A DNA stretch of 32,823 nucleotides, taken from contig JADGNY010000075.1 of NCBI GenBank assembly GCA_017883235.1, positions 1-32,823 of the forward strand, written 5' to 3'. The notes beneath the pieces are model-generated. The model made no database searches and was not told the DNA's origin. It was given only the letters and a program-made list of their open reading frames with translations. Origin of the DNA: Thermoanaerobaculia bacterium (lineage in GTDB: Bacteria > Acidobacteriota > Thermoanaerobaculia > Gp7-AA8). Both the position numbers and the translations under genes were made by a program. The stretch's first letter is position 1. Each line of letters opens with the position of its first letter. Shown one piece after another: positions 7,731 through 32,823 of the stretch.

Positions 7731-8651
7731 ATGTCCGCCTATTTTTCCGTCGTCATCCCGACCTACAAGCGCCTGCCTATGCTGCTGCGCGTGCTCGATG
7801 CCCTCGACGCGCAGATCGACGCGCCGGAGTTTGAAGTCATCGTGATCGATGACGGATCGGCTGATGCGACAGCGAGCGTGATGTGCGAGCGGAACGCGAA
7901 GAATTACGCGCTGACGTTCCGTTCGCAGTCCAACGCCGGTCCGGGACAGGCGCGCAATCACGGGGTGTCGCTCGCCACCGGCCGATATGTCCTCTTCATC
8001 GGCGACGACACGGTGCCGGAGCCCCGTTTCCTCGCCGAGCACGCCCGCGTCCACCGCGACGCGAACGACGACCCGCTCGCAGCCTGCCTCGGCTACACCG
8101 GCTGGCCGCCCGGCGAGCGCGTCACCGCATTCATGGATTACATCAACGACTACGGCCTGCAGTTCGGCTACAAGCTGATCCGGGACGGCGAGATCGTTCC
8201 CTTCAACTTTTTCTACACCTCGAACATCTCCCTCGACCGACAGGTTCTCGGCGGCGAGCCGTTCGATACGACCTTCCCGGCCGCGGCGTGGGAAGACATC
8301 GAGCTGGCCTTTCGCCTCGATGCGCGCGGCCTGAAGATCCACTACAACGGCCGCGCCGTCACCCGCCACTACCACCCCATGACCGTCGATTCATTCACCC
8401 GCAGGCAGTACACGGTGGGCCGATCCGGCGCGATTTTCTACCGCAAGCATCCGGAGCTTGGCGGCTTCCTCGGCATTCACGAGCTGGAGACGCGAACACT
8501 TGCGGATGAACGGGAGCTGAGCCATCTCCGCCGCCGCGCACGGCTGGGGGAGAGATTCCGCGTTCTGGCGACGAATCGCGTATTCAAGACGTTGATGCGG
8601 GAGCACTACCTGCGGGGGTTGCGGGATGGGTTGGATGAGGGTTCATCCTGA
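7731..8651 (+). CDS. Family 2 glycosyltransferase
   Basis: A 306-aa GT-A fold transferase. The N-terminus FSVVIPTYKRLPMLLRVLDAL, the nucleotide-binding VIDDGSAD, NAGPGQARNHG, the DxD-like LFIGDDTVPEP and the later AAWEDIELAFRLDARG (the ED acceptor-side motif) are all typical of GT2 enzymes that extend surface polysaccharides. Sugar donor and acceptor are unknown. A TACAAT hexamer lies 10 nt before the ATG and no Shine-Dalgarno is visible, so the mRNA may be leaderless. It follows rlmA by 20 bp. Confidence 0.9.
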   Translation: MSAYFSVVIPTYKRLPMLLRVLDALDAQIDAPEFEVIVIDDGSADATASVMCERNAKNYALTFRSQSNAGPGQARNHGVSLATGRYVLFIGDDTVPEPRFLAEHARVHRDANDDPLAACLGYTGWPPGERVTAFMDYINDYGLQFGYKLIRDGEIVPFNFFYTSNISLDRQVLGGEPFDTTFPAAAWEDIELAFRLDARGLKIHYNGRAVTRHYHPMTVDSFTRRQYTVGRSGAIFYRKHPELGGFLGIHELETRTLADERELSHLRRRARLGERFRVLATNRVFKTLMREHYLRGLRDGLDEGSS

Positions 8652-8863
8652 CGTCTCGCGTAGCGAGGCCGTCAGGATCTCCGGTCAGACCGCGCAGACT
8701 GGTATTGAATACGCGGCCTGTGAAGTACAACCGGCTACGCAACGGCAAGTTCTGATCCGCGTTTCGGATCGGATCTCGGTGAAATCCGCTGACCGGTATC
8801 CAATTCACGGCAGCGCGGCGCCACCGGAGATCCTGACAGTCTCGCTGCGCGAGACGTCAGGAT
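8645..8863. repeat. Paired inverted palindromic element, ATCCTGAC type
   Basis: A 41-bp unit (8645-8685), beginning ATCCTGACGTCTCGCG and ending CAGGATCTCCGGT, is itself a hairpin. An inverted copy occupies 8823-8863, with about 137 bp of unrelated sequence between. The block GGCAGCGCGGCGCCACCGGAG near 8809 recurs in inverse form at about 23187-23208 in the element before wzm. It lies between the convergent glycosyltransferase and lepB genes and overlaps the last codons of both. Confidence 0.85.
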
Positions 8864-9519
8864 ATCCCTTTGAAGAACCGATGCAGTCGCGGCCGGTACC
8901 AGTGCGCCCGGTCGAGTGAGAACGCCACCGCCATCGCTTTCCCAACGATCCGCCGGCGCTCGATCATGCCGATGTAACGGCTGTCGTTGCTGTTGTCGCG
9001 GTTGTCGCCCATCACGAAATAGCGGCCTGGCGGTACGACCAGCGGCCCGTACGAGCGCATGGCCGGAATCTGCGGCGTGAACATCACATCATGCGTCTTG
9101 CCGTACATCGTCTCCTCGACGACGAATGACGTTCCCTGCTCGTCGTCCTCGCGCTGGCCGACCGGCTTCCACACCGCGGCCTTGCCGTTGACGAAGAGCT
9201 GGTTGTCGCGCATTTCGATCCTGTCGCCAGGCAATCCGACGACCCGCTTGACGAGCCGAACACCGTCCGCCGGCGAGAAGAGCACGACGATGTCGCCGTG
9301 CTTCGGATCGCTCCATTTCGCCACCTCGATCATCGTGAACGGGATCTTGAGGTCGTAGGCCAGCTTGTTGACGACCACTCGGTCGCCCTCTTCGATGGTC
9401 GGTTTCATCGACCCTGTAGGCACATCGTTCCAGTCGGCCAATGCGGATCGGAGCGAGCTGATGATCAGCAACATCAGGATGAAGACGCGGACTTCGTAAA
9501 AGACTTTCTTTTTATCCAT
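8857..9519 (-). CDS. lepB: Signal peptidase I
   Basis: A 220-aa type I signal peptidase, which cleaves signal peptides at the outer face of the cytoplasmic membrane. The catalytic Ser37 is in PTGSMKPT, the general base Lys91 is in LVKRVVGLPGDRIEM, and the conserved GDNRDNSNDSR box follows in the third conserved region. A single N-terminal hydrophobic segment (about residues 11-28) serves as membrane anchor. Length is normal for a single-anchor SPase I. The 3' end overlaps the inverted repeat at 8823-8863. The gene is transcribed away from the LTxxQ protein gene. Confidence 0.95.
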   Translation of the reverse strand: MDKKKVFYEVRVFILMLLIISSLRSALADWNDVPTGSMKPTIEEGDRVVVNKLAYDLKIPFTMIEVAKWSDPKHGDIVVLFSPADGVRLVKRVVGLPGDRIEMRDNQLFVNGKAAVWKPVGQREDDEQGTSFVVEETMYGKTHDVMFTPQIPAMRSYGPLVVPPGRYFVMGDNRDNSNDSRYIGMIERRRIVGKAMAVAFSLDRAHWYRPRLHRFFKGIS

Positions 9520-9669
9520 GAATGCGTACGCACTTTTTGATCGTGGCAGTCTGATGTGTAGGTAGCAGCAAGGCGGCTGGTTTCAACGTGAAAGCAGCCG
9601 GGCCGTTTTCAACGCCTTGAATGGTCCGTCGTAGTACGAACTGAAGCATTCCCGGAGGACTTGAACGTC

Positions 9670-10086
9670 ATGAAAAGGTTTGTCATTGCATTGATGGTTA
9701 CGGCAACGGCGGCGATTACCTTCGCCCAGACCGCGGACCCGGGCCAGTTCCACCGCCATGCGCGCGCGGACCGGTTCGCCTCGCAGCTCGATCTCACCGA
9801 CGCTCAGAAGCAGCAGATGAAGGATATCCGCACTGCTTCCCGCGAGCAGAACAAGCAGCTTTACGCTGATTACCGTGCCAAGCAGCAGCAGTTCCGTGCC
9901 CTGAAGCAGGCCAACGATCCCTCGGCCGACGACATCAAGGCGGAGCTGGAGACGATGCGGCCGCAGATCCGGGCCGCGCGCAAAGCGAGCCGTGAAGCGA
10001 TGCGTAATGTGCTCACGCCCGAGCAGCGATCGCAGCTCGAGCAGTGGAAGGCCGAGCGGAAGTCCAAGCGCCGCTCGAGCCGGTAG
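9670..10086 (+). CDS. LTxxQ-motif periplasmic protein (Spy/CpxP-like)
   Basis: A 138-aa secreted protein. Residues 1-20 form a signal peptide (MKRFVIALMVTATAAITFAQ) with a cleavage site near FAQ-TA. The mature part is highly charged and helical, with two copies of the Spy/CpxP hallmark: LTDAQ near residue 42 and LTPEQ near residue 116. Spy and CpxP are periplasmic chaperones or stress sensors; that role here is inferred. The ATG at 9670 is preferred over a TTG at 9661, since GGAGG ends 11 nt before the ATG but only 2 nt before the TTG. A terminator follows. Confidence 0.8.
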   Translation: MKRFVIALMVTATAAITFAQTADPGQFHRHARADRFASQLDLTDAQKQQMKDIRTASREQNKQLYADYRAKQQQFRALKQANDPSADDIKAELETMRPQIRAARKASREAMRNVLTPEQRSQLEQWKAERKSKRRSSR

Positions 10087-10107
10087 TTCCTTCCCCTTCC
10101 TCCTTGA

Positions 10108-10146
10108 AAGGCGCCGCTGATTCAGGATCGGCGGCGCCTTTCCTTT
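10108..10146 (+). terminator. Rho-independent terminator after the LTxxQ gene
   Basis: A perfect 10-bp stem, AAGGCGCCGC (10108-10117) and GCGGCGCCTT (10131-10140), with a 13-nt loop is followed by a T-rich tail TCCTTTG. It separates the LTxxQ gene from the AAA ATPase. Confidence 0.85.
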
Positions 10147-10190
10147 GCCGGCAACCGGCAACCGCGAGACCGGTTTAGACTGACGCGCCA

Positions 10191-11678
10191 ATGTCACACC
10201 GCACGTCCGTCCATGATCTGAAAAGCCTGGTGCTCTCGTTCCACTCGCTCATCGGCGTCGAGACAGTCGAGGAGGATCGGGTGCGCTCGCTGCTGATCGA
10301 GGTGGCCAACGATCTGAAGCAGCAGTTTTACGAATGGTCGCTGACCAGCGGTTTCAACCGGCTGCGCGGTGCCACGATCAACGGTACGCAGGATCCCCTG
10401 GCCGCCCTGCATCACATCACCGAGATCGAGAACACCGACGCCATCTATCTGCTGAAGGACATGGCCCGGCATCTCGAGAACCCGAACATCAGCCGTGCCT
10501 TGCGGGAGCTCGCGCAGAAGCTGACGTCGACCCGCTCGGCGCTGATCCTCACCGGCGATCCGCTCGAGCTGCCGCAAGATTTCGAAGCGCTTGCCGTCCG
10601 CTTCACGCTGGAGATGCCGGATGTGACCGAGCTGCGCGAGGTCGTCCGCGGCGTGGTCGACTCCATCAGCGCGCGGCAGCGGGTGCAGATCGATCTCTCG
10701 CGCGACGACGCGTTCCGGCTCGTGCAGGCGCTGCAGGGGCTGACGGTCAATCAGGCCCGCCAGGTCGTGGCCCAGGCAATCGTCGAAGACGGCAGGCTGT
10801 CCGCCGACGACATCCACACCATCGTCCGCTGCAAGGGCGAGATGATCGAGCACGGTGGGATCCTCGAGTTTTTTTCGGTAGATGAGAACAATTTCGAGAT
10901 TGGCGGCTTCGCGCGGCTGAAAGACTGGCTGCAAAGCGCCCGCGTCGGCTTTTCCCCCGAGGCGAGAGCACTCAATCTCAACGCACCGAAGGGAGTGCTG
11001 TTCGTCGGAGTGCAGGGCTGCGGAAAATCGCTGGCGGCGAAGTTCGTGGCCCGCGAGTGGGGACTGCCGCTGTTGAAGCTCGACGCCGGACGGCTGTACG
11101 AGAAGTACGTCGGCGAATCGGAGAAGAACTTCCGCAAAGCGACGACGCTGGCCGAGGCCATGGCGCCGGTGATTCTCTGGATCGACGAGATCGAGAAAGC
11201 CTTCGCCCAGGGCGGCAGCGGGGAATCGGACGGCGGCCTCTCCCAGCGCCTCTTCGGCTCGTTCCTGACCTGGCTGCAGGAGAAGAAGGACGAGGTCTTC
11301 GTCGTCGGTGCGGCCAACGACCTGATGAACGTTCCGCCGGAGTTGCTGCGCAAAGGCCGCTTCGACGAGATTTTCTTCGTCGACCTTCCGACGCGCGAAG
11401 AGCGGATGTCCATCTTCGCCATCCACCTCCGCCTCCGCAAACAGAACCCCGACGCCTTCGACCTGGCCGCCCTCGCCGGCGCCACCGACGGCTTCAGCGG
11501 CGCCGAGATCGAACAGGCCGTCATCTCCGCCCTCTACCGCTCGCTGCAGAAGAAACAGCCGGTCACCGCCGAGTCGATCATCGAAGCCGCGCGCAGCACG
11601 ACACCGCTGTCGGTGTCGCGAGCCGAGGATGTCGCGAGGGTGCGGGAGGTGGGGAAGAGATTTACGCCGGTGAGGTAG
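10191..11678 (+). CDS. Ycf46-type AAA ATPase
   Basis: A 495-aa AAA protein of the Ycf46 group found in chloroplasts, cyanobacteria and scattered bacteria; its role is poorly defined. The N-terminal 230 residues contain the degenerate ATPase-like region of the family (ALILTGDPLELP). The C-terminal AAA module has Walker A GVQGCGKS, KLDAGRLYEKYVGESEKNFR, Walker B VILWIDEIEKAF, a sensor in VVGAAND, an arginine finger in RKGRFDE and the AAA lid GATDGFSGAEIEQAV. A TAGACT hexamer ends 9 nt before the ATG and no Shine-Dalgarno is seen, so the message may be leaderless. It stands alone, between a terminator and the palindrome-rich region. Confidence 0.88.
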   Translation: MSHRTSVHDLKSLVLSFHSLIGVETVEEDRVRSLLIEVANDLKQQFYEWSLTSGFNRLRGATINGTQDPLAALHHITEIENTDAIYLLKDMARHLENPNISRALRELAQKLTSTRSALILTGDPLELPQDFEALAVRFTLEMPDVTELREVVRGVVDSISARQRVQIDLSRDDAFRLVQALQGLTVNQARQVVAQAIVEDGRLSADDIHTIVRCKGEMIEHGGILEFFSVDENNFEIGGFARLKDWLQSARVGFSPEARALNLNAPKGVLFVGVQGCGKSLAAKFVAREWGLPLLKLDAGRLYEKYVGESEKNFRKATTLAEAMAPVILWIDEIEKAFAQGGSGESDGGLSQRLFGSFLTWLQEKKDEVFVVGAANDLMNVPPELLRKGRFDEIFFVDLPTREERMSIFAIHLRLRKQNPDAFDLAALAGATDGFSGAEIEQAVISALYRSLQKKQPVTAESIIEAARSTTPLSVSRAEDVARVREVGKRFTPVR

Positions 11679-11837
11679 GGATTGTTTTGCCGGCGTCACA
11701 CCTGGATCCGAGGGGAGATCGTGAAAATCACGATCACGCCGGCCTCCTCATCGCTTGAGCATTGACGAATCAATACGTTAGCGTGCATCGAAACAAACTG
11801 GAAGTCCTTCTTCATCAACGCTGAAGTGGTGCTGATC

Positions 11838-12024
11838 AACGCTAAAGCGTTGATCGAGAAGCCATGACTCCCTCCTATTTGCTCGCGAGACATTCATGAG
11901 CAACGCTTTAGCGTTGATGACCAACGCTAAAGCGTTGATGATCAAGCCTCAAACCCTTCACGTTGGCCCTCCGGAGATTGACAACAAACGCTTTAGCATT
12001 CATGAATAACGCTAAAGCGTTGAT
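11838..12024. repeat. Scattered AACGCTAAAGCGTT palindromes
   Basis: Near-palindromic 14-mers AACGCTAAAGCGTT or AACGCTTTAGCGTT occur at 11838, 11902, 11923 and 12008, with a one-base variant at 11987. They are often flanked by TTGATGA or TCATCAA. The region is visibly more AT-rich than its surroundings and carries no credible gene. Between 11679 and 11837 I see only degenerate copies. Confidence 0.8.
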
Positions 12025-12364
12025 GAAGATCAACTCGTCTGATCTGGATTGCTACGAACGTGATGCCAAACAACGCTTTAGCGTTTGTCAATTACTCTTT
12101 AGCGTTGGCGAAGATCAACTCGTCTGATCTGGATTGCTACGAGCGTGATGCTAAACAACGCTTTAGCGTTATTCAATTACTCTTTAGCGTTGGCGAAGAT
12201 CAACTGGTCTGATCCGGATTGCTACGAACGTGATGCCGAACAACGCTTTAGCGTTATTCAATTACTCTTTAGCGTTGGCGAAGATCAGCTCGTCTGATCT
12301 GGATTCCTCCGAACATGATGCTGGCAACGGCGTTAGCTTTGCAAAACAATGCTTTAGCATTGGC
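12025..12364. repeat. 85-bp tandem repeat, four units
   Basis: Units start at 12025, 12110, 12195 and 12280, exactly 85 bp apart, each beginning GAAGATCA and continuing CTCGTCTGATCTGGATT or close variants. Each unit carries one palindrome (12072, 12157, 12242) plus a half-palindrome TACTCTTTAGCGTTGG. The fourth unit is diverged, and its palindrome has become AATGCTTTAGCATT (12348), with both arms changed so that pairing is kept. The last unit overlaps the 3' end of the ParE-type toxin gene. Confidence 0.92.
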
Positions 12365-12725
12365 GAAGAGGTACCAACCCGCTCCAGTTAGTGTTAGTTG
12401 CAGATGCCTTGATGAAGAACGCTTTGGCGTTGCCGCAACATGAACGAAAGTCTCGCGCGCCGTGCACGAATGCGACGATTGAGACGTGTTGATCTTCCAC
12501 GCGGTAGACGAGCCGGTAGGAGCCCACGAGCAACTCTCGGTAACGGGAATCGTTGAGTTCAGGCACGACACGACCGCGCTCGGAGAGCTCAGAAAGGCTT
12601 TCGGCCGCGCTGACCGCCTCCACCGCGAGACGTCGAGCCGCCGCAGGCGAGTCGAGGGCGATGTATTTGGCTGCGTCCTCGATCATCGCGATGACGCGAG
12701 GCGACCACCTTATTCGTCGAGCCAT
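12354..12725 (-). CDS. ParE/RelE-type toxin with repeat-derived C-terminal extension
   Basis: A 123-aa protein whose first ~93 residues match the ParE/RelE toxin fold: WSPRVIAMIEDAAKYIALDSPAAARRL, a GRVVPELND turn, YRELLVGSYRLVYRV and the terminal VHGARDF. ParE toxins inhibit gyrase and RelE toxins cut mRNA; which applies is not decidable here. The usual family length is 90-100 residues. The last ~28 residues (from about CCGNAKAF) are encoded by sequence of the palindrome zone, and the stop codon lies inside the palindrome at 12348. It overlaps the upstream antitoxin gene by 16 bp. Confidence 0.8.
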   Translation of the reverse strand: MARRIRWSPRVIAMIEDAAKYIALDSPAAARRLAVEAVSAAESLSELSERGRVVPELNDSRYRELLVGSYRLVYRVEDQHVSIVAFVHGARDFRSCCGNAKAFFIKASATNTNWSGLVPLRQC

Positions 12726-24234: not shown

Positions 24235-25611
24235 GTGCCCGACTACGCCATCGCCCTGACCAACGTCTCCAAGTCCTACCGCCTGTGGGGCCGCGGGTCG
24301 CAGTTCGCTACGCTCAAGAGCGCGCTGCTCAAGCGCGATCTGGCGCTGACCCCGGAGACGAGCGTGGAGGCGGTGCGGGATGTGTCGTTCGCGGTCGACC
24401 GCGGGGAAGCGTTCGGCATCATCGGGCGCAATGGCTCAGGGAAATCGACGCTTCTCAAGCTGATTTCAGGAATCCTCAAGCCGACGACAGGCAGCGTGCG
24501 GGTGAACGGGCGCGTGGCCGCGCTGATCGAGCTCGGCGCCGGCTTTCATCCCGAGATCACCGGGCGCGAGAACATCTACATCAACGGCATCATGCTCGGG
24601 CTTTCCCGAAAGGAGATCGACGCCCGCTTCGATCAGATCGTGGCCTTCTCCGGCATCCCCGATTTCATCGATCAGCCGGTGAAGACCTACTCCTCCGGCA
24701 TGTACGTCCGGCTCGGCTTCGCCGTCGCCGTCCACGTCGATCCCGATGTGCTGCTGATCGATGAAGTGCTTTCGGTCGGGGACGAAGAGTTCGCCGCGAA
24801 GTGCGTGGCCAAGATTCAGGAGATGAAGTATCGCGGCGTGACCCTCGTCTTCGTCACGCACCAGCTCGACCAGGTGCGCAACCTCTGCGACCGCGCGCTC
24901 TGGCTCGATCACGGCGAGCCGGAGACGATCGGCGATCCGGTGCGTGTCGTCGATGCCTATCTGCAGGCGGTGTCATCGACGCAGACAGTTCCGCCGCGTG
25001 CGGCAACAGATGAAACGAAGAAGCTCGAGACGCCGCGCGACGATCCCAACGAAGAAGAACGATGGGGTTCCGGCGAAGTCGTTCTGTCGCGCGTCGCTCT
25101 CGTCGACAATCGGGGTGATGAGCTCGTCGCCCTCGGACCGGGCACGCCGGTAGCAATCGAGATGGACATCACCGTGCGTGTGCCGCAGGACGACTTCGTC
25201 TTCGGCATCGGCATCTATCACGCCGACGGCACCTGCGTGTACGGCACGAACACCGATCTGGAAGGGCTGATGCCGGAACGGCTCGAATCCAACGGGCGCG
25301 TCCGCTTCATCATGCCCGCCCTCGATCTGGTGGCCGGTACTTACCGCATCGACGCCGCCATCCACACCCGCAACGGCCGCGCCTTCGACTACCGCCGCGG
25401 CGCCATCCGCTTCGTCGCCGGCTCCCGCGTCCACGACATCGGCGTCTACCGCCCCAAACACCAGTGGAAATTCGAAGGCGGCATCGCCATCAAAGAGATC
25501 GATCTCGAGCAGCGGAATGTGCCGATCGAGGTGGCGGAGGCGATGCGCGAGGCCAGGAAACCGAAAACGTTCAACCACAGAGACACAGAGAACACAGAGA
25601 AATCTCAGTGA
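24235..25611 (+). CDS. wzt: Wzt-like polysaccharide ABC exporter ATPase with carbohydrate-binding domain
   Basis: A 458-aa ATPase. Walker A is GRNGSGKS, the signature is YSSGMYVRLGFAVAV, Walker B is VLLIDEVLSVGD, and TGRENIYINGIMLGL is typical of the Wzt/TagH class. From about residue 285 a beta-rich C-terminal domain resembles the Wzt carbohydrate-binding module that recognises the glycan end (VFGIGIYHADGTCVYGTNT). Starts with GTG at 24235. The last residues, NHRDTENTEKSQ, are encoded by a palindromic repeat, so the original C-terminus probably lay near REARKPK. Confidence 0.9.
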   Translation: MPDYAIALTNVSKSYRLWGRGSQFATLKSALLKRDLALTPETSVEAVRDVSFAVDRGEAFGIIGRNGSGKSTLLKLISGILKPTTGSVRVNGRVAALIELGAGFHPEITGRENIYINGIMLGLSRKEIDARFDQIVAFSGIPDFIDQPVKTYSSGMYVRLGFAVAVHVDPDVLLIDEVLSVGDEEFAAKCVAKIQEMKYRGVTLVFVTHQLDQVRNLCDRALWLDHGEPETIGDPVRVVDAYLQAVSSTQTVPPRAATDETKKLETPRDDPNEEERWGSGEVVLSRVALVDNRGDELVALGPGTPVAIEMDITVRVPQDDFVFGIGIYHADGTCVYGTNTDLEGLMPERLESNGRVRFIMPALDLVAGTYRIDAAIHTRNGRAFDYRRGAIRFVAGSRVHDIGVYRPKHQWKFEGGIAIKEIDLEQRNVPIEVAEAMREARKPKTFNHRDTENTEKSQ

Positions 25612-25645: not shown

Positions 25646-26161
25646 TCACAAACGCGGCAAAGCCTTGTAAAACACCACCGTGTCGCACGGCGTCCCATCC
25701 GGATCCAATGCGTATGCCGGAATGACTCCCACCTCTGTCCATCCGCCGCGGCGATACAGCGATTCCGCGCCGTCGCCGCGCTTCGTGTCGAGCGTCAGGA
25801 GCGTGAAGCCGGCAGCCTGCGCACGGCGTTCGATCTCCAGCATCGGCATCGATCCCAGGCCCTGGCGTCGCGCCCGGCGATGGATGAGCAGCTTCGCGAT
25901 GTCCGCCCGGTGCCGCTGGTTCGGCATCCCCGCCGGGAGTATCTGAACCGTACCGGCAATCCCGTTCTCATCCCGCGCGACGAGAAAAATGGCCCGAGCG
26001 TCCGCTTTCGAGATCCGGTCCCGCCACCACGCTTCCGCGGATTCCAGCGTCGTCGAGTCGAGAAAGCCGAGCGAGGCACCGGAATCGATGGCGTCGAGCA
26101 GGAGCAGGGCGAGATCCCGAACGTCGCTGTCGCTAACCGGTAGAGCCAGTGGCTCGATCAT
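25646..26161 (-). CDS. GNAT family N-acetyltransferase
   Basis: A 171-aa GNAT enzyme. The central IFLVARDENGIAGTVQILP strands and the acetyl-CoA pyrophosphate-binding loop HRRARRQGLGSMPMLEIERRAQ (motif A, R/Q-x-x-G-x-G) are clear, followed by LTLDTKRGDGAESLYRRGGWTEVG and FYKAL at the end. The acceptor is unknown. It converges with wzt across the inverted repeat at 25574-25629. Confidence 0.88.
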   Translation of the reverse strand: MIEPLALPVSDSDVRDLALLLLDAIDSGASLGFLDSTTLESAEAWWRDRISKADARAIFLVARDENGIAGTVQILPAGMPNQRHRADIAKLLIHRRARRQGLGSMPMLEIERRAQAAGFTLLTLDTKRGDGAESLYRRGGWTEVGVIPAYALDPDGTPCDTVVFYKALPRL

Positions 26162-26225
26162 GGCCTGAGTTTACTGTCCACCCTGAGCGGCGAAAATCGC
26201 TTTACCGCAGACCAAATTCTGTTTT

Positions 26226-26666
26226 GACGTATGGCCATGGCACTACCGCAGAGGGGTTGTCTCCTGCGTGGGAAGGGGTTGACGTTATGCGTGAAGGTAG
26301 GCCACTTCAGGAACAGATCCATGGATGACGAAACCACTTCGATGTCCCTTCCGGCGAAAGGAGATTTGTTCTGACATATGGCCATGGCCCTATCGAAGAA
26401 TGTTTTTTGTTTCCGCGGGAGGGCAGTGACGTTATCGCTGAGGCCGGGAAGCCTCGAAATCACATCCATGGACGGAGAATCGATCAAACATTCGCTCGGG
26501 CCAGAGGAGATTTTGTTCTGACGTAGAGCCCTGGCCCTATCGAAGAATGTTTTTCGCTTCTTCGATATGCCGATTCCGATGTGCCGGAAGCAAATCAGCC
26601 TCCCAACGATGTCCATGGATCTACTCGTGCTCGGATCGTTATTTTGAGCTTGGAGGGGTTGATCAG
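26226..26666. repeat. 147-bp tandem repeat, three diverged units
   Basis: Units begin at about 26226, 26373 and 26520, exactly 147 bp apart, each opening near GACGTATGGCCATGG or GACATATGGCCATGG and containing CTATCGAAGAATGTTTTT in two of the three. Each also has a CCATGGA about 100 bp in. Because 147 is divisible by three, the minus strand stays open across all units and would encode 49-residue repeats (SMD...KTFFDRAMA...QNK). No ribosome site or convincing start is seen. Composition is less GC-rich than the neighbours. Confidence 0.85.
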
Positions 26667-26684
26667 GCGGCGTTCGTGGCTGCG

Positions 26685-26921
26685 TCTTCAGCAGATCGAA
26701 GAGTCTCCGGAGCGATATCGGCGCCGTTAGGCCAGCAAACAGTCCCTCCGGCGATGAAGAACCGTTTGAACGCACGTTTGGTCAGTCAGGCTTTGGAAGA
26801 CCTCGCCGTGAAGCCATCGGGTAAAGTCGACGATCTTCTCAGCACCGTCTGAAAACCCGATTCGGATTTGGTGTCCACGGACGTATTCGGCGCTGATGAC
26901 TCGGACTAACTGTTTGATCAT
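26685..26921 (-). pseudogene. Decayed DUF2442 gene
   Basis: From an ATG at 26921, preceded by GGAGTAAGGAA, the minus strand reads MIKQLVRVISAEYVRGHQIR followed by [29 protein letters not shown], a DUF2442 N-terminal half. The second half continues in another frame as [20 protein letters not shown] and DIAPETL, then returns in a third frame as LFDLLKT. At least two frameshifts are therefore needed. DUF2442 proteins are small and often lie in toxin-antitoxin-like pairs; no partner remains here. Confidence 0.75.
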
Positions 26922-26953
26922 TTCCTTACTCCGTTGGAACGATGCTCTCACCT

Positions 26954-27533
26954 AATTTCCGCCCTTCACCCACGGCAACGCCCACCGCCCTTCCCCCTCG
27001 TCGAGCTTCGGTAGCGGGACCGGTTTGCCCTGGCGTTTGAGCTGGGTCAGCTCCCAGAGCTTGGCGTATTTCCAGAACGTGTAGCAGACGTGCATGCCGA
27101 CCGAGATCACGCCCGCGTGTGCCGTCGAGGAAGCCGAGGTTGATGAGGAAGTCGCGGACGAATTTGGCGGTGGGGTGCCCGATGATGCCGAGGATGTTGG
27201 TGGTCTTGCCGTCGATGTACATCTGCGCGGCGCCCCAGTTCGCGTAGCGCGTCATCTTGGAGATCATGTGGTCGAAGGTGCGGATGTAGAAGTGATCCAT
27301 CTTCGCGTTCAGGCGGCCGGTGGCGCCGTCGACGAGCAGGTCGGCGTGGACGCGCTTGTTCGGATAGCGGGCGTGACCTTTGTGAAACAGCCGCGTGACG
27401 CGGTCGCGCTGCAGGCCGGAGAAGCGCACCGGCTTGCCGAGCATGAAGTTGAGGCGGCCGACGGAGTAAGCCCAGAGATGGAGCGGACCCTCGAGCGTGC
27501 GCAGGATTTCGTCGCGCAGCTTCGGCGTCACGC
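26954..27533 (-). pseudogene. 5'-truncated, frameshifted copy of the glycosyltransferase at 29553-30389
   Basis: Homology to the intact gene runs from about 26963 to 27533, covering its last ~190 codons; over a 163-nt stretch compared by eye there are 8 differences (about 95% identity). The catalytic N-terminal third is absent. A one-base insertion near 27110 (ATCACGCCCGCG against ATCAGGCCGCGG) shifts the frame after FLDGTRG. It cannot be functional. It lies in the same orientation as the intact copy, on the far side of the YwgA-HD pair. Confidence 0.93.
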
Positions 27534-27612
27534 GAAGCACCGGGCGCCCTCAATTCTCGGCTTACTGGGTCGGGACCGAGAGTTCCGTGAGAATCGAACG
27601 AATGACTTGGCC

Positions 27613-28143
27613 CTACGCCGCCAATTCTCTTCGCCAGCGGTCAACTTCCTCGACCGCTTTCTGCGCTTCGTCGGAAGTGATGTGCGGTTTTACCTCGCGG
27701 ATCTTCGTGGCACGTCCTTCGACGGATGTGTCGTCGGTGGTCACGGTGAAGAAAAGCGCGGTGGCGACGCGTTCGAGCTGCTTCACTCCGCGGCCGGCGA
27801 GATGCCTCACTACGAATTCGACTGCATTCCGATGTGCGGCGATCGTCTTTGCGGTGTGGGTTTCGAGGTATCCGACCTGTTCGCCGGGTTCGAATGTCGC
27901 GCCATACTCCGTGGGCTGCACGGCAATCATGTCGTCGGCCATCATCGAGCCGAGGTGGCGCTGAAGGTCGAACGAGAACGGGCCGTAGATGTACAACTGA
28001 AAATCGAACCCGAGCGGAACCTTCAGCAACTCCTGCATGACAAAGACGGACTTTTGAACCATCGTCTCGCCGCAGAAGCCGTTTCCGGCACGGCAATCCT
28101 TCACGAGCGTTGCCACAATCGCGGAGCGTTGCAGGTCATTCAT
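27613..28143 (-). CDS. YwgA-like protein, partner of the HD phosphohydrolase
   Basis: A 176-aa protein resembling Bacillus YwgA and related small proteins of unknown function: ETMVQKSVFVMQELLKVPLG, then FDFQLYIYGPFSFDLQRHL, the YGPFS block being the clearest. In Bacillus, ywgA lies beside the HD-domain gene ywfO, and the same pairing occurs here. The start at 28143 has AGGAG seven bases upstream; an ATG at 28149 overlapping the HD stop (ATGA) is an alternative. Coupled translation with the HD gene is likely. The C-terminus is helical and charged (EEVDRWRRELAA). Confidence 0.7.
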   Translation of the reverse strand: MNDLQRSAIVATLVKDCRAGNGFCGETMVQKSVFVMQELLKVPLGFDFQLYIYGPFSFDLQRHLGSMMADDMIAVQPTEYGATFEPGEQVGYLETHTAKTIAAHRNAVEFVVRHLAGRGVKQLERVATALFFTVTTDDTSVEGRATKIREVKPHITSDEAQKAVEEVDRWRRELAA

Positions 28144-28145
28144 TG

Positions 28146-29465
28146 TCATACTCCTAGCTCCATCTGTTGCGAAAGGATCGTTTTCTTGTTGTCGGCAAGC
28201 CACTTCATCGCGTCCTTCTTCTTCTCCGGATCGACGAAGACGGCGCCGACCGCTGCCGCCTTGAAGCCGGCGTAGATCGTCGACTCCGATCGTGACGTAC
28301 TGATGCTGCCGTCGTCGAGGAGGATCGGGAACTCGACGTTCTGCTGCTTCGGTGCGATTTGGCGATCACGAACGGCGGTGTCACCGAATCGCGCACGCAA
28401 CGCCTTTGCGACACATTCCACCGCGTCGGCGCGGAGCCGCTGATCGAGTGCGTTCCGCTCGTACACCTTCCGGAAATGGCCGCGACGAGCGATCCGATGC
28501 GCGGGATCGTGCCCCGGTGCGGCGGGGTCCGCGGCGGCGATGTTGATCGCGGAGAGCACTTCGTTGTCGGTCATGCGCAGGTGTCCTTCGACATCCGTGG
28601 GATAGGTCTTCAGCCACTGCACCATGAACTCGCTCAGATGGATATCGTACGCGAGTCGGACGTGATGGTAGTAGAGCTGGAGAAACATGAAGTGACGCGC
28701 GAGCTGGAGTGCCTCTGCAGCGTGGATGCCGCCTTTCTCGATGCCGATCATCGGCCGGTCGAGAGTCGGATGCCGAAGGATGCGTAGCGTGTCGATCAGC
28801 CGGTAGTGGTCAAAGCGGCCGTAAGCCACGCCGGCGTGATGAGAATCGCGAAGGAGGTAGTCGATGCGATCGACGCCAAACGCGTCGCCGGTGACGATCT
28901 CGGTCATCAGGAGGTCCCATTCCTTGAAGTCGGTCGCCTTGCCGAACCATTTGCCCCACTTCTCAGGCCCGATTGCGATCTTCGCCACCTGATCGGGGTC
29001 GGGTGCCGGCATCATTTGCTTCAGAACGTCGCGCATCTCTCCTGACCGTAGAACCTCAACCGTGAGCCATTCGTGTTTGCCGTCGGGAAGGAGTTGTTCC
29101 TCGGCCGCATGGGAAAACGGCAGATGCCCGAGGTCGTGAAACAACGCCGCGAGACGGACGGTCTTCCGCCAGGCGAGAAGCGTCTCGCGGTCGGGGAAGA
29201 TGTCCTGTACGCCAGAATGCCGATTGCGTTCGTCGGTGATGATGTCGAAGACCCGGCCCGCGAGCTCCATGACGCCCAGGGAGTGCTCGAACCGGCGATG
29301 CGTTGCACTCGGGTAGACGAGGTATGTGAGCGCGAGCTGGTGAATGTGCCGAAGGCGCTGAAACGGTCGCGAATTGATTGCCGCGACTTCGTCAGCCGTA
29401 ACGCGGACGAAGTTGTGAATCGGATCTCGAATCTCGTGTTGCAGCTTCGGCACGGCTTGAAGCAT
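28146..29465 (-). CDS. HD-domain phosphohydrolase, SAMHD1/YwfO-like (putative dNTPase)
   Basis: A 439-aa HD enzyme. It opens with the family block EIRDPIHNFVRVTADEV and PFQRLRHIHQLALTYLVYP. The metal and catalytic set is visible: His61 in RRFEHSLGVMELAG, His110-Asp111 in ALFHDLGHLPFSH, and Asp199 in GVDRIDYLLRDSHHAG. The order and wording are close to SAMHD1 (RFEHSLGV, HDLGHGPFSH, DYFARDCHH), which hydrolyses dNTPs. Activity on dNTPs is inferred from the family. It is transcribed before the YwgA-like gene, with a possible 4-bp overlap. The pair is bracketed by duplicated glycosyltransferase sequence. Confidence 0.88.
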   Translation of the reverse strand: MLQAVPKLQHEIRDPIHNFVRVTADEVAAINSRPFQRLRHIHQLALTYLVYPSATHRRFEHSLGVMELAGRVFDIITDERNRHSGVQDIFPDRETLLAWRKTVRLAALFHDLGHLPFSHAAEEQLLPDGKHEWLTVEVLRSGEMRDVLKQMMPAPDPDQVAKIAIGPEKWGKWFGKATDFKEWDLLMTEIVTGDAFGVDRIDYLLRDSHHAGVAYGRFDHYRLIDTLRILRHPTLDRPMIGIEKGGIHAAEALQLARHFMFLQLYYHHVRLAYDIHLSEFMVQWLKTYPTDVEGHLRMTDNEVLSAINIAAADPAAPGHDPAHRIARRGHFRKVYERNALDQRLRADAVECVAKALRARFGDTAVRDRQIAPKQQNVEFPILLDDGSISTSRSESTIYAGFKAAAVGAVFVDPEKKKDAMKWLADNKKTILSQQMELGV

Positions 29466-29552
29466 CGTAGCAGCTCGAAGAATTTGAGCTTCCTAATCTA
29501 CGATCGGTAGATGACGACTTATTGCTGGGCCGGACCCCGGTTGAAACGTGGC

Positions 29553-30389
29553 CTACCCCTTCACCCACGGCAACTCCCACCGTCCTTCCCCCTCATCAAG
29601 CTTCGGCAGCGGGACCGGTTTGCCCTGGCGTTTGAGCTGGGTCAGCTCCCAGAGCTTGGCGTACTTCCAGAACGTGTAGCAGACGTGCATGCCGACGGAG
29701 ATCAGGCCGCGGGTGCCGTCGAGGAAGCCGAGGTTGATGAGGAAGTCGCGGACGAACTTGGCGGTGGGGTGGCCGATGATGCCGAAGACGTTGGTGGTCT
29801 TGCCGTCGATGTACATCTGCGCGGCGCCCCAGTTCGCATAGCGCGTCATCTTGGCGATCATGTGGTCGAAGGTGCGGATGTAGTAGTGATCCATCCTCGC
29901 GTTCAGGCGGCCGGTGGCGCCGTCAACCAGCAGGTCGGCGTGGACGCGCTTGTTCGGGTAGCGGGCGTGGCCTTTGTGGAACAGCCTGGTGACGCGGTCG
30001 CGCTGCAGGCCGGAGAAGCGCACCGGCTTGCCGAGCATGAAGTTGAGGCGGCCGACGGAGTAGGCCCAGAGATCGAGGGGACCTTCCAGCGTGCGGAGGA
30101 TCTCGTCGCGCAGCCTCGGGGTCACCCGCTCGTCGGCATCGATGACGAAGATCCAGTCGTTCGTGGCGCGGTCGATGGCGTAGTTCTTCGCTGACGCCGC
30201 GCCGAGGTACTCACGCTGTTCGATGCGGACGCGGGGGAACTTCTCGCGCACCAGCTCCACCGTCCCGTCCTTCGAGAACGAATCGAGCAGATAGATCTCG
30301 TCGGCCCACTCCACCGAACGGATGCAGGCTTCGATGTTCTCGATCTCGTCAAGTGTGTGAATCAGAACGGTGACGGGGGCGCGGGACAT
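29553..30389 (-). CDS. Family 2 glycosyltransferase (WaaE/KdtX-like)
   Basis: A 278-aa glycosyltransferase with the N-terminus VTVLIHTLDEIENIEACIRS, SVEWADEIYLLDSFSKDGTV, the AASAKNYAIDRA segment and the DxD motif in WIFVIDADERVTPRLRDEIL. This pattern is that of the LPS-core or lipooligosaccharide glycosyltransferase family 2 group (WaaE/KdtX-like). The start at 30389 matches the family; longer open sequence upstream is antisense to the amidohydrolase. Its last ~190 codons are duplicated at 26954-27533. It diverges from the amidohydrolase, with 24 bp between starts. Confidence 0.92.
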   Translation of the reverse strand: MSRAPVTVLIHTLDEIENIEACIRSVEWADEIYLLDSFSKDGTVELVREKFPRVRIEQREYLGAASAKNYAIDRATNDWIFVIDADERVTPRLRDEILRTLEGPLDLWAYSVGRLNFMLGKPVRFSGLQRDRVTRLFHKGHARYPNKRVHADLLVDGATGRLNARMDHYYIRTFDHMIAKMTRYANWGAAQMYIDGKTTNVFGIIGHPTAKFVRDFLINLGFLDGTRGLISVGMHVCYTFWKYAKLWELTQLKRQGKPVPLPKLDEGEGRWELPWVKG

Positions 30390-30413
30390 TGAGCGAAATC
30401 GTACACTTTGCGC

Positions 30414-32372
30414 ATGCGAATCCGGGTTCTGCCTTTCCTCGCTCTCCTGTTCGCCGCTTGTGCTCATACCACGCCTCCGCAAACGCGCGCCTTCATCATG
30501 GGCGGTCACCGTGCCGGAACGGAGACTGTAACGACGCAGGGCAACACGCGCACGATCGACTTCGAGTTCAACGACCGAGGGCGCGGGCCGAAGACGCATA
30601 CGGTCATGAGCATTGATGCGCATTCGGTCACGGCGTCGCTGAAGACCGACGGCAACGACTACTACAAGGTGCCGGTGACGGAGACGTTCGCGAACGGCAC
30701 GTGGTCGAACGGCGCGGAGAGCGGCAACGGAAAGGCAGGCTTCTTCGTCTCCATGTACGGACCGCCCGAGGAGACGGGAGTGCTCGCGCGGGCGCTGCTG
30801 GCGGCGCCGAATCAGCGGCTGGCGCTTCTCCCGGCCGGAGAGGCCTCGATCCGCAGGGTTGGTGAGCTGAACGTCTCGGCAGGCGGGAAGACGCAGCACA
30901 TCACCTGCTATGAGATCAGCGGCCTCGGATTCACCCCGTCGCCCGTTTGGCTGGACGATCGGAACGAGCTGTTCGCCTCGGCGTCGTCGTGGGCGTCCAC
31001 CATCGCCGATGGATGGGACTCCGTCATCCCGCGGCTGCTGGAATCGCAGGACAAATGGCACGATGAGGCGGTGTCGCAGGCGGCGGCGCGTCTCACGCAT
31101 GTGCCGGCCGGCGGCGGCATCGTCATCACCAACGCCCGGCTCTTCGATCCGGTCACGATGACGACGACTCCCGGCACGACGATCGTGATCCGCGGTAATC
31201 GCATTGAATCGGCGGGCGCAGGCATTGCGGCGCCCGAGGGGCTGGAGAGGATCGACGCGCAGGGACGCACGGTCATCCCCGGGCTGTGGGACATGCACAC
31301 GCACAACTCGGAAGACGACGGGATGCTCGACATCGCCAACGGCGTCACCTCGGTGCGCGACCTGGCCAATGACACCGATTTTCTGCTCGATCTTCGGAAG
31401 AAGTACGAGCGCGGCGCGGCCATCGGCCCGCGCATCGTCCTGGCCGGCATCATCGACGGTCCGGGCAAGTTCGCCGGGCCTACGAAGGTGTTAGTGGACA
31501 ATGCTGAGCAGGCACTTGCCGCGGTCGACAATTACGCGAAGCTGGGTTACGAGCAGATCAAGATTTACAGCTCGGTGAAGCCGGAGTTGGTGCCGGTCAT
31601 CGTACGCAGGGCGCACGAGCACGGGCTACGCGTCAGCGGCCACATCCCGGCGTTCATGCGCGCCGAGGATGCCGTGCGTGACGGGTACGACGAGATCCAG
31701 CACACGAACTTTCTCTTCCTGAATTTCTGGCCGGACGTGGCGGACACGCGTACGCCGATCCGTTTCACTGCCGTTGCCGAACGTGCTGCGTTGCTCGATC
31801 TGCAGTCAGCGCCGGTGAAGACGTTTCTCGATCTGCTGCGCGAGAAGAAGATCGTCATCGATCCGACGGTGGCGATCTTCGAAGGGATGTTTACCGCGCG
31901 CAAAGGAACCATATCGCCGGGCTACGCGATGATTGCCGACCGTTTGCCGCCGCAGGTGCGCCGCGGCTTCCTCACCGGCGGACTTCCTGTTCCCGAGGGG
32001 ATGGACCAGCGCTACCGCGACTCGTTCCGAAGCCTTCTGGCGATGGTGAAGGCGCTCTACGACAATCACATCACGATCGTGGCCGGTACTGACGCCATGG
32101 CCGGTTTCTCACTGCACCGCGAGCTGGAGCTGTACGTCCAGGCCGGCATTCCGGCCGCCGAGGTGCTTCGTATCGCCACCCTTGGCGCCGCCAGCGTGAT
32201 GAAGCACGACGACCAGCTCGGCTCCATTGCCCCCGGCAAGTTGGCCGATCTCGACATCATCGACGGCGATCCCTCGAAGAACATCAGCGATGTTCGTAAG
32301 GTCGTGACGGTGATCAAGGATGGGAAGGTCTACGACGCGCGAGCCGTGGCGGGGGAGATTGGAGTGCATTAG
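30414..32372 (+). CDS. Lipoprotein amidohydrolase
   Basis: A 652-aa secreted metal-dependent hydrolase. The signal peptide MRIRVLPFLALLFAAC ends in a lipobox (LFAAC), so the mature protein should be lipid-anchored. The first ~230 residues are a family-unspecific beta domain. The amidohydrolase core then follows, with the metal motif HxH in LWDMHTHN, a Lys in GYEQIKIYSSVKPE, His in RVSGHIP and EIQHTNFLF, Asp in IVAGTDAMAG, and the closing ASVMKHDDQLGSIAPGKLADLDIIDG. Substrate is unknown; peptidase/prolidase-like relatives exist. TACACT ends 6 nt before the ATG. Confidence 0.9.
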   Translation: MRIRVLPFLALLFAACAHTTPPQTRAFIMGGHRAGTETVTTQGNTRTIDFEFNDRGRGPKTHTVMSIDAHSVTASLKTDGNDYYKVPVTETFANGTWSNGAESGNGKAGFFVSMYGPPEETGVLARALLAAPNQRLALLPAGEASIRRVGELNVSAGGKTQHITCYEISGLGFTPSPVWLDDRNELFASASSWASTIADGWDSVIPRLLESQDKWHDEAVSQAAARLTHVPAGGGIVITNARLFDPVTMTTTPGTTIVIRGNRIESAGAGIAAPEGLERIDAQGRTVIPGLWDMHTHNSEDDGMLDIANGVTSVRDLANDTDFLLDLRKKYERGAAIGPRIVLAGIIDGPGKFAGPTKVLVDNAEQALAAVDNYAKLGYEQIKIYSSVKPELVPVIVRRAHEHGLRVSGHIPAFMRAEDAVRDGYDEIQHTNFLFLNFWPDVADTRTPIRFTAVAERAALLDLQSAPVKTFLDLLREKKIVIDPTVAIFEGMFTARKGTISPGYAMIADRLPPQVRRGFLTGGLPVPEGMDQRYRDSFRSLLAMVKALYDNHITIVAGTDAMAGFSLHRELELYVQAGIPAAEVLRIATLGAASVMKHDDQLGSIAPGKLADLDIIDGDPSKNISDVRKVVTVIKDGKVYDARAVAGEIGVH

Positions 32373-32373
32373 G

Positions 32374-32587
32374 GGTTGCGGGGTCTCGCGGTGGGGAGTA
32401 AATGTCATTCCGAGAGACGCGAGGAATCCCCAGCCCGGACGACGCTGCTCATTCGTTTGAGATGGACAAAGGAGGGGGGCGGTCAGGCGCTATCGTTGCT
32501 ACCGGAAGCGATGCACGCACCTGCCCCCTGATTCCAGTGTCGCTGACGCGGCACGTCATTGCCGCGATAGCGGCAACAAGACGGTGG
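32374..32587. other. Intergenic region with short dispersed repeats
   Basis: No gene is credible from 32373 to the window end (451 bp). This part holds GGTTGCGGGGTCTCGCGGT at 32374-32392 (shared with 2828) and TGTCATTCCGAGAGACGCGA at 32402, a dispersed-repeat-like sequence. Sequence near 32545-32575 (GACGCGGCACGTCATTGCCG) partly matches the inner arm of the palindrome that follows. Confidence 0.5.
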
Positions 32588-32759
32588 CCAGGGGTGCGAG
32601 CGTTTTTTGCGAGCACCCCTGGTAAAGAGATGTCGTGGTTTGGTGTCGCGTCAGCGGCACTGGAGTAATCGGGGACGCCATCCAGTGCCGCTGACGCGGC
32701 ACGCTTTCAAGAGCGACCCAGATACCAGGGGTGCTCGCAAAAAACGCTCGCACCCCTGG
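32588..32759. repeat. Nested 172-bp palindromic element
   Basis: Outer 35-bp arms, CCAGGGGTGCGAGCGTTTTT... at 32588-32622 and its exact inverse at 32725-32759, enclose inner inverted arms GCGTCAGCGGCACTGGA (32648-32664) and TCCAGTGCCGCTGACGC (32681-32697). Each outer arm is itself a hairpin with stem CCAGGGGTGC. From 32760 to 32823 I see nothing further. Confidence 0.92.
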
Positions 32760-32823
32760 CTGATATGGAGTGACCCTGTCAAGTTACGCTGCCCGTGGTT
32801 TTGCGCCTTTGATTTTGTTTTTC

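Follow-up and report, generated by a model that had tools for sequence, protein, structure and literature searches.

An HD phosphohydrolase and a YwgA-like partner with the fold of a DarG antitoxin domain: a mobile gene pair beside a glycosyltransferase scar in a Thermoanaerobaculia genome

Introduction

What joins an HD phosphohydrolase to the YwgA-like protein encoded directly downstream of it, and why does the pair lie between an intact glycosyltransferase (GT) gene and a broken second copy of that gene's 3' end? The question is raised by contig JADGNY010000075.1 of a soil bacterium of the Thermoanaerobaculia (Acidobacteriota). The window analyzed here is the whole of this 32,823-base contig (G000:C127), part of a genome of 6.9 Mb in 246 contigs that is possibly a metagenome bin. 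Reading down the minus strand from position 30389, the genes are GT copy A, the HD gene, the YwgA-like gene, and GT copy B, all four on the same strand. A preliminary description of the locus had reported this order, with HD and YwgA-like genes between an intact GT gene and a 5'-truncated, frameshifted copy of its 3' end, and alignment confirms it. The stop codon of the HD gene and the start codon of the YwgA-like gene overlap as ATGA.

The pair (HD-YwgA) is tentatively read here as a mobile unit composed of a SAMHD1-type deoxynucleoside triphosphate (dNTP) triphosphohydrolase (dNTPase) and a DarG-fold partner that likely binds and restrains the enzyme. Regulated pairs built on an HD dNTPase are already known; what is new is the fold of the partner, which is of more interest than the GT scar beside it. 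No literature on an HD-YwgA system was found in openly available papers, although other papers could exist.

The YwgA-like partner

The AlphaFold2 model of the YwgA-like protein, made from five sequences, has a predicted local distance difference test (pLDDT) score of 93.8. When the model is compared with the PDB using Foldseek, the only significant matches are the two DarG chains (B and D) of entry 7yk3 (E 6e-5, probability 1.00); the next match has an E value of 0.14. A structural alignment (VIA) with 7yk3 covers 164 of the 178 residues with a Z of 17.0 and a root mean square deviation of 3.1, and the next best Z is 9.2. Sequence searches give only weak matches to DarG (1.7e-8 with the PADLOC DarG model, and a score of 28 against a cut-off of 250 with the NCBIfam model), and a search of PDB sequences with YwgA returns no match; DarG is indicated solely by structure comparison and by the profile libraries. 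The PADLOC DarG model matches all of the YwgA proteins tested, including one from Bacillaceae, and always at about positions 160-328, past the macrodomain. The protein in the window aligns to model positions 163-311 only. The N-terminal macrodomain of DarG (an ADP-ribosyl hydrolase) is missing from YwgA, there is no DarT gene next to YwgA, and the protein gives no nucleotidyltransferase match.

Within DarTG, the C-terminal domain of DarG occludes the active site of DarT (Deep et al. 2023, cited in PMC11481870). The YwgA-like protein shares the fold of this toxin-plugging domain (PDB 7yk3). However, it is a stand-alone protein, and the enzyme encoded beside it is an HD phosphohydrolase, whereas DarT is an ADP-ribosyltransferase. 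This fold was not foreseen by the preliminary description. At a different locus (L070, 2240-2848), an HD-YwgA pair has, at a distance of ~5 kb, a gene for another stand-alone protein that strongly matches the C-terminal part of DarG (1e-44).

The HD enzyme

Profile comparison of the HD protein with the PDB gives matches to 2hek (2e-66), EF1143 (1e-37), and SAMHD1 (5e-29). When the sequences are aligned, the metal-binding and catalytic residues are seen to be kept: HRRFEH61, H110-D111, H114, H119, H131-E132, and D199 (H..HD..D; GH.PFSH, HE). The roles of these residues are taken from SAMHD1. The protein falls below the curated cut-offs for dGTPases, scoring 17 bits against 400 for NF041026 (the anti-phage dGTPase of NCBIfam) and 28 against 152 for TIGR01353, and it is thus assigned to the SAMHD1 kind, neither to Dgt nor to the named anti-phage dGTPase family. 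From its family and its residues, we infer that it is a deoxynucleotide triphosphohydrolase of the SAMHD1/EF1143 type. It has in common with SAMHD1 and EF1143 (PDB 2o6i, 3irh, 4lrl) the HD family, the metal and catalytic residues and, probably, the predicted dNTP triphosphohydrolase activity; unlike it, these enzymes have no YwgA-type partner in their described function. The structural model of the HD protein is of low confidence (pLDDT 66), and no claim here rests on it.

Pairing, distribution, and movement

With a search profile built from four YwgA-like proteins, 4 of the 149 genomes searched in the class have a YwgA-like gene, as do 9 of 396 in the phylum Acidobacteriota. The preliminary description had suggested tabulating how often such genes sit beside HD genes. 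An HD gene is directly upstream of YwgA in all nine phylum genomes, and no YwgA is found at the loci of other HD subfamilies (0/16 and 0/18). The HD proteins that have a YwgA partner separate from 16 that lack one with a tree support of 100/99, and the HD and YwgA distance matrices agree (12 pairs; Mantel r 0.91, p 0.0002). Some of the loci are damaged. In G325 the contig ends within the HD gene and YwgA contains an in-frame TGA; in G414 a frameshift splits the HD gene and YwgA is intact. The genome of the window carries a second, intact YwgA (G000:C101), in front of which the HD gene has been reduced to its last ~70 codons; this YwgA is 79% identical to that of G002. There (L057, G000:C101:12000-29000, positions 8280-12429), YwgA and the HD stub are directly beside SIR2-HerA, and the HD-YwgA unit was apparently cut short by this defense module.

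Outside the phylum, three further pairs are present in two genomes of the phylum to which a 4.3-kb Gemmatimonadaceae metagenome contig belongs. This contig itself has a solo YwgA (L058, 1310-1843) whose product is 78% identical in amino acids to that of the window, reflecting either transfer across phyla or a binning error. An archaeal plasmid has one YwgA copy without HD. A distant HD-YwgA pair is found in the Bacillaceae, in Priestia megaterium (L136; E 7e-12 with the YwgA profile and 5e-8 for the DarG match); we take YwfO and YwgA to be the gene names at the Bacillaceae locus. The Bacillaceae pair and that of the window have the same order, HD gene and then YwgA gene. However, they are ~27% (HD) and ~19% (YwgA) identical, and the window pair belongs to patchy, moving loci, whereas the Bacillaceae pair occupies an apparently conserved chromosomal place. 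Listeria has an HD gene without YwgA. The HD matches in phage records of Listeria, Staphylococcus, and Enterococcus look like chromosomal sequence, no phage-borne relatives of YwgA are found in GenBank phages or IMG/VR, and YwgA is absent beside the HD genes of Klebsiella phages and plasmids that were looked at.

HD and YwgA are thus a co-inherited two-gene module. Since the module is absent from most of the family, it moves horizontally, as the preliminary description had supposed. Within the genus, G002 carries an HD-YwgA pair elsewhere, within a hydrogenase gene cluster, and an HD gene of the module type is found nowhere in G001 or, outside the genus, in G003. At three loci YwgA has outlived its HD gene, which is a stub in G000:C101, absent from the Gemmatimonadaceae contig, and frameshifted in G414; no intact HD gene of this clade without YwgA was seen. 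Survival of YwgA after loss of HD, and not the reverse, is the asymmetry expected of an antitoxin.

A proposed restraint of the dNTPase

By analogy, YwgA most likely restrains the SAMHD1-type dNTPase in the manner of an antitoxin. YwgA would bind the HD enzyme and hold it in check, as DarG does with DarT (and as CloB does with CloA, by a different chemistry). The check would be lifted, probably through phage infection or a nucleotide imbalance, and the released enzyme would then drain the dNTPs and DNA replication would stop. Its likeness in fold to the domain with which DarG silences DarT suggests that YwgA might act as a safety catch on an enzyme that depletes nucleotides, perhaps against phages.

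A regulated dNTPase pair with an established defense role is Clover, which consists of the dGTPase CloA and the nucleotidyltransferase CloB (PMC12265719). Clover is found in defense islands, its dNTPase is toxic once the activity of the partner is lost, and CloB, which is of the Pol-beta type, makes an inhibitory dinucleotide (PMC12265719). Clover and HD-YwgA each consist of two genes, one for an HD-domain dNTPase and one for a second protein that restrains the enzyme in Clover and would do so in HD-YwgA. What the two HD dNTPase subunits share is their enzyme class only. The partners differ, since YwgA has the DarG-domain fold and HD-YwgA has no counterpart of the Pol-beta nucleotidyltransferase CloB.

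A broader proposal, in which we have less confidence than in the restrained dNTPase itself, is that HD-YwgA is an undescribed anti-phage system resembling a toxin-antitoxin pair. The stand-alone DarG-fold protein would then directly inhibit the dNTPase. Its fold would define an antitoxin domain that plugs enzymes in general: DarT in DarTG, and HD dNTPases both here and in Bacillaceae.

Defense or housekeeping

The HD-YwgA loci lie in mutually unrelated neighborhoods. At L049 (G009:C22, 5622-17268), an Hma (helicase-methylase-ATPase) defense locus that otherwise looks complete holds the pair between its hmaB and hmaC genes, in the opposite orientation. At L073 (G208:C42, 4876-10467), it is flanked by a SIR2-like gene and by DUF1828/AbiEii genes, possibly as part of a larger defense cluster. 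At L082 (G722:C179, 2174-9500), it is beside genes for the major tail and tape measure proteins of a phage, and the HD protein apparently has a long N-terminal extension. Together with SIR2-HerA, this makes four loci with defense or prophage neighbors (Hma, SIR2-HerA, SIR2-like/AbiEii, and prophage), a count over the module loci alone. The suggestion that the pair is a candidate for defense gains from these neighbors, and it is tempered by the Bacillaceae pair, which is in an apparently core part of the chromosome. A defense role is plausible; it is offered as a hypothesis, since other loci have plain metabolic neighbors.

Several observations weigh against a restrained, defensive dNTPase. A number of module loci have ordinary metabolic neighbors. 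The Priestia pair is surrounded by genes for pta, lipoate ligase, rsfA, a tautomerase, and a site-2 protease, which looks like a core chromosomal neighborhood and suits a role in nucleotide housekeeping. The asymmetry by which YwgA outlives HD consists of few cases, one of which may be a sequencing error, and another comes from a short metagenome contig that carries YwgA by itself. A fold like that of the DarG domain does not establish the same function, and residues 1-105 of YwgA also resemble winged-helix proteins of the PadR/MarR type (Z 7.5-9), so that YwgA could be a DNA-binding regulator. Finally, DNA mimicry of the kind attributed to DarG is not indicated by the charge of YwgA, which is not markedly acidic (pI 5.7 in the window and 8.5-9.8 in some relatives).

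The strongest competitor, although we consider it somewhat unlikely, is a housekeeping pair for nucleotide control, in which the HD enzyme keeps dNTP pools down or clears away damaged nucleotides, YwgA regulates it positively or fine-tunes it, and the patchy distribution results from loss and occasional transfer with no part in defense. The cleaning of modified nucleotides has indeed been proposed for YwfO (PMC4993169), and both the Priestia neighborhood and the loci with only metabolic neighbors fit such a role. However, within Acidobacteriota the pair is rare, is placed differently in each genome, was acquired twice by the genome of the window, and occurs in or near defense loci and a prophage; in addition, no YwgA accompanies the other HD subfamilies of the same phylum, which probably serve in housekeeping.

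It is less probable still that YwgA is a transcription factor or other DNA-binding accessory of the HD gene and not a direct inhibitor. The winged-helix resemblance would be explained in this way, and the overlap of the two genes would fit autoregulation. However, Z values at the winged-helix level often arise by chance, the full-length alignment with the DarG domain (164 residues, Z 17) scores far above all of the winged-helix matches, and that domain of DarG acts through binding of the toxin.

The site and the GT scar

G001 and G002, the other two genomes of the genus, and G003, from the family, keep the order of ABC permease, ABC ATPase, and one GT gene, and the amidohydrolase beyond GT is likewise in place in G001 and G002. 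What lies between the ATPase and GT differs in each: G001 has unrelated sequence of ~0.9 kb, G002 has a minisatellite, and G003 has almost nothing. All three thus provide the empty site, with one GT and no HD or YwgA there, that the preliminary description had proposed to seek. Because these close relatives share the flanks, the spot just past the GT gene is a site that varies between relatives, and the module and GT copy B occupy it solely in the genome of the window. The minisatellite array in the equivalent variable site of the sister species is at positions 13598-14146 of L045 (G002).

Copy A (30128-29557) and copy B (27534-26962) align over 573 columns with 93.9% identity, and 538 of 573 positions match when the indel is removed. 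The aligned lengths are 573 and 574 bp, and the E value of 0 excludes a chance match by far. The duplication that had been described therefore stands, with its identity corrected from about 95% to 94%, its length from ~570 bp to 573/574 bp, and the 5' junction of copy B placed at ~27534-27540. Homology begins sharply at 30128/27534 and ends with the GT 3' end at 29557/26962; since the onset is abrupt, copy B lacks the first ~260 bp of the gene. A single frameshift (an extra G near 27114) interrupts the reading frame of copy B, which is otherwise open as far as 26952.

Each copy is closest to the other (tree support 0.97). Their identities to G001 are about equal (88.9% and 90.0%), G002 and G003 are likewise about equidistant from both, and the informative sites relative to G001, G002, and G003 split evenly; thus, neither copy can be distinguished as the native one. 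Synonymous changes make up 26 of the 35 differences. Among polarised substitutions, amino-acid changes account for 6 of 11 on the copy B branch and 3 of 14 on the copy A branch. If half of the unresolved changes are assigned to copy B, which is an assumption, its amino-acid changes come to ~7 of 16, compared with 76% expected without selection (P ~0.005). Copy B probably worked as a gene, judging from these substitutions, during part of the divergence. Mostly synonymous divergence is what one would expect had both copies been functional over much of that period, and it favors the entry of a diverged copy over an old duplication in place.

The preliminary description had envisaged an element that integrated inside the GT gene and brought its own diverged GT 3' part. 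The second half of this idea is favored by the mostly synonymous divergence, with the choice of native copy left undecidable by the near-equal identities to G001. The first half is not borne out. No integrase is found at the locus, as had been stated, nor is a tRNA or a long terminal repeat, and the hallmarks of a mobile element (integrase, att repeats, tRNA target) are absent close to the HD-YwgA genes of the window. When each of 13 other HD-YwgA loci is compared with itself, none has a duplication of a flanking gene. A general mechanism of integration that duplicates gene ends was therefore rejected, and an element specialized for insertion within GT genes is not supported. The duplicated GT end is a scar of recombination that arose once and carries no element signature.

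The module would have arrived with DNA that also bore a diverged GT end. This DNA would have been joined by homology on one side, within GT, and without homology on the other, after YwgA, and one GT 3' end would thereby have been left stranded, with a frameshift. Homology-facilitated illegitimate recombination leaves a homologous joint at one end and a non-homologous joint at the other, according to PMC3240628 and, for the T6SS arrays of V. cholerae, PMC5361080. The present case is like those described there in its one-sided homology and in its stranded resident gene end; it differs in that the scar is deduced from a single locus.

For the scar alone, a fairly improbable rival is that the GT end was first duplicated in place and that HD-YwgA landed between the copies later. 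The copies would then be expected to be closest to one another and equally distant from G001, as they are, and the higher share of amino-acid changes on the copy B branch would also fit. The predominance of synonymous differences and the deficit of amino-acid changes in copy B, which point to a gene that worked for part of the time, speak against it and for the entry of a diverged copy. An artefact of assembly or of strain mixing, which might be suspected in a possible metagenome bin of so many contigs, is very unlikely, since copies that are 6% different make a repeat-collapse error improbable, the joint between YwgA and copy B offers an assembler no misleading homology, no N runs are seen, and the module is found independently in other assemblies.

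Features of the window

The features of the locus and its conserved flanks are collected in Table 1. Three further observations concern the rest of the window. An open reading frame (ORF) region at 26158-26775 contains an internal tandem duplication of 147 bases (26220-26413 / 26367-26560, ~70% identical), has lower GC, and looks non-conserved. An array of 85-base tandem repeats within AT-rich sequence at 11808-12725 is beside a small ORF whose product has, by eye, some likeness to ParE-type toxins (PHROG 2455, unknown function). Close to the contig end, at 32587-32760, there is a perfect 38-base inverted repeat with its arms 98 bases apart.

Table 1. Coordinates of the HD-YwgA locus and neighboring features in the window
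Feature	Coordinates	Strand	Basis
GT copy A, intact glycosyltransferase family 2	29553..30389	-	278 aa; ATG 30389, stop 29553; Pfam PF00535 E 1e-15; orthologue of nearest relative 93% aa identical
HD phosphohydrolase, SAMHD1/EF1143/YwfO type	28146..29465	-	439 aa; Pfam HD + HD_assoc_2; PDB profile matches 2hek, 2o6i (EF1143), SAMHD1; residue alignment
YwgA-like protein, DarG C-terminal-domain fold	27613..28149	-	178 aa; AlphaFold2 pLDDT 93.8; 7yk3 DarG domain Foldseek E 6e-5, Z 17.0; PADLOC DarG 1.7e-8
Non-homologous joint, YwgA stop to GT copy B	27535..27612		matches no part of the GT 5' region
GT copy B, 5'-truncated copy of GT 3' end	26952..27534	-	94% identity, 573 bp (27534-26962)
Frameshifting one-base insertion in GT copy B (extra G, near 27114)	27112..27115	-	alignment of copies A and B
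Small ORF beyond GT copy B, within variable stretch	26727..26951	-	weak DUF2442 match, below Pfam gathering score
ABC transporter ATP-binding gene, conserved flank on one side of the site	24235..25611	+	syntenic in G001, G002, G003
Amidohydrolase gene, conserved on the opposite flank of the site	30408..32372	+	Pfam PF01979; syntenic in G001 and G002

Conclusions

The uncharacterised YwgA family gains a fold and a testable job, that of an inhibitor of the adjoining HD enzyme. If this is true, there would be at least two unrelated means of holding immunity by dNTP depletion in check, a nucleotide signal in Clover and a protein plug here, and the toxin-binding domain of DarG would be one member of a wider antitoxin family.

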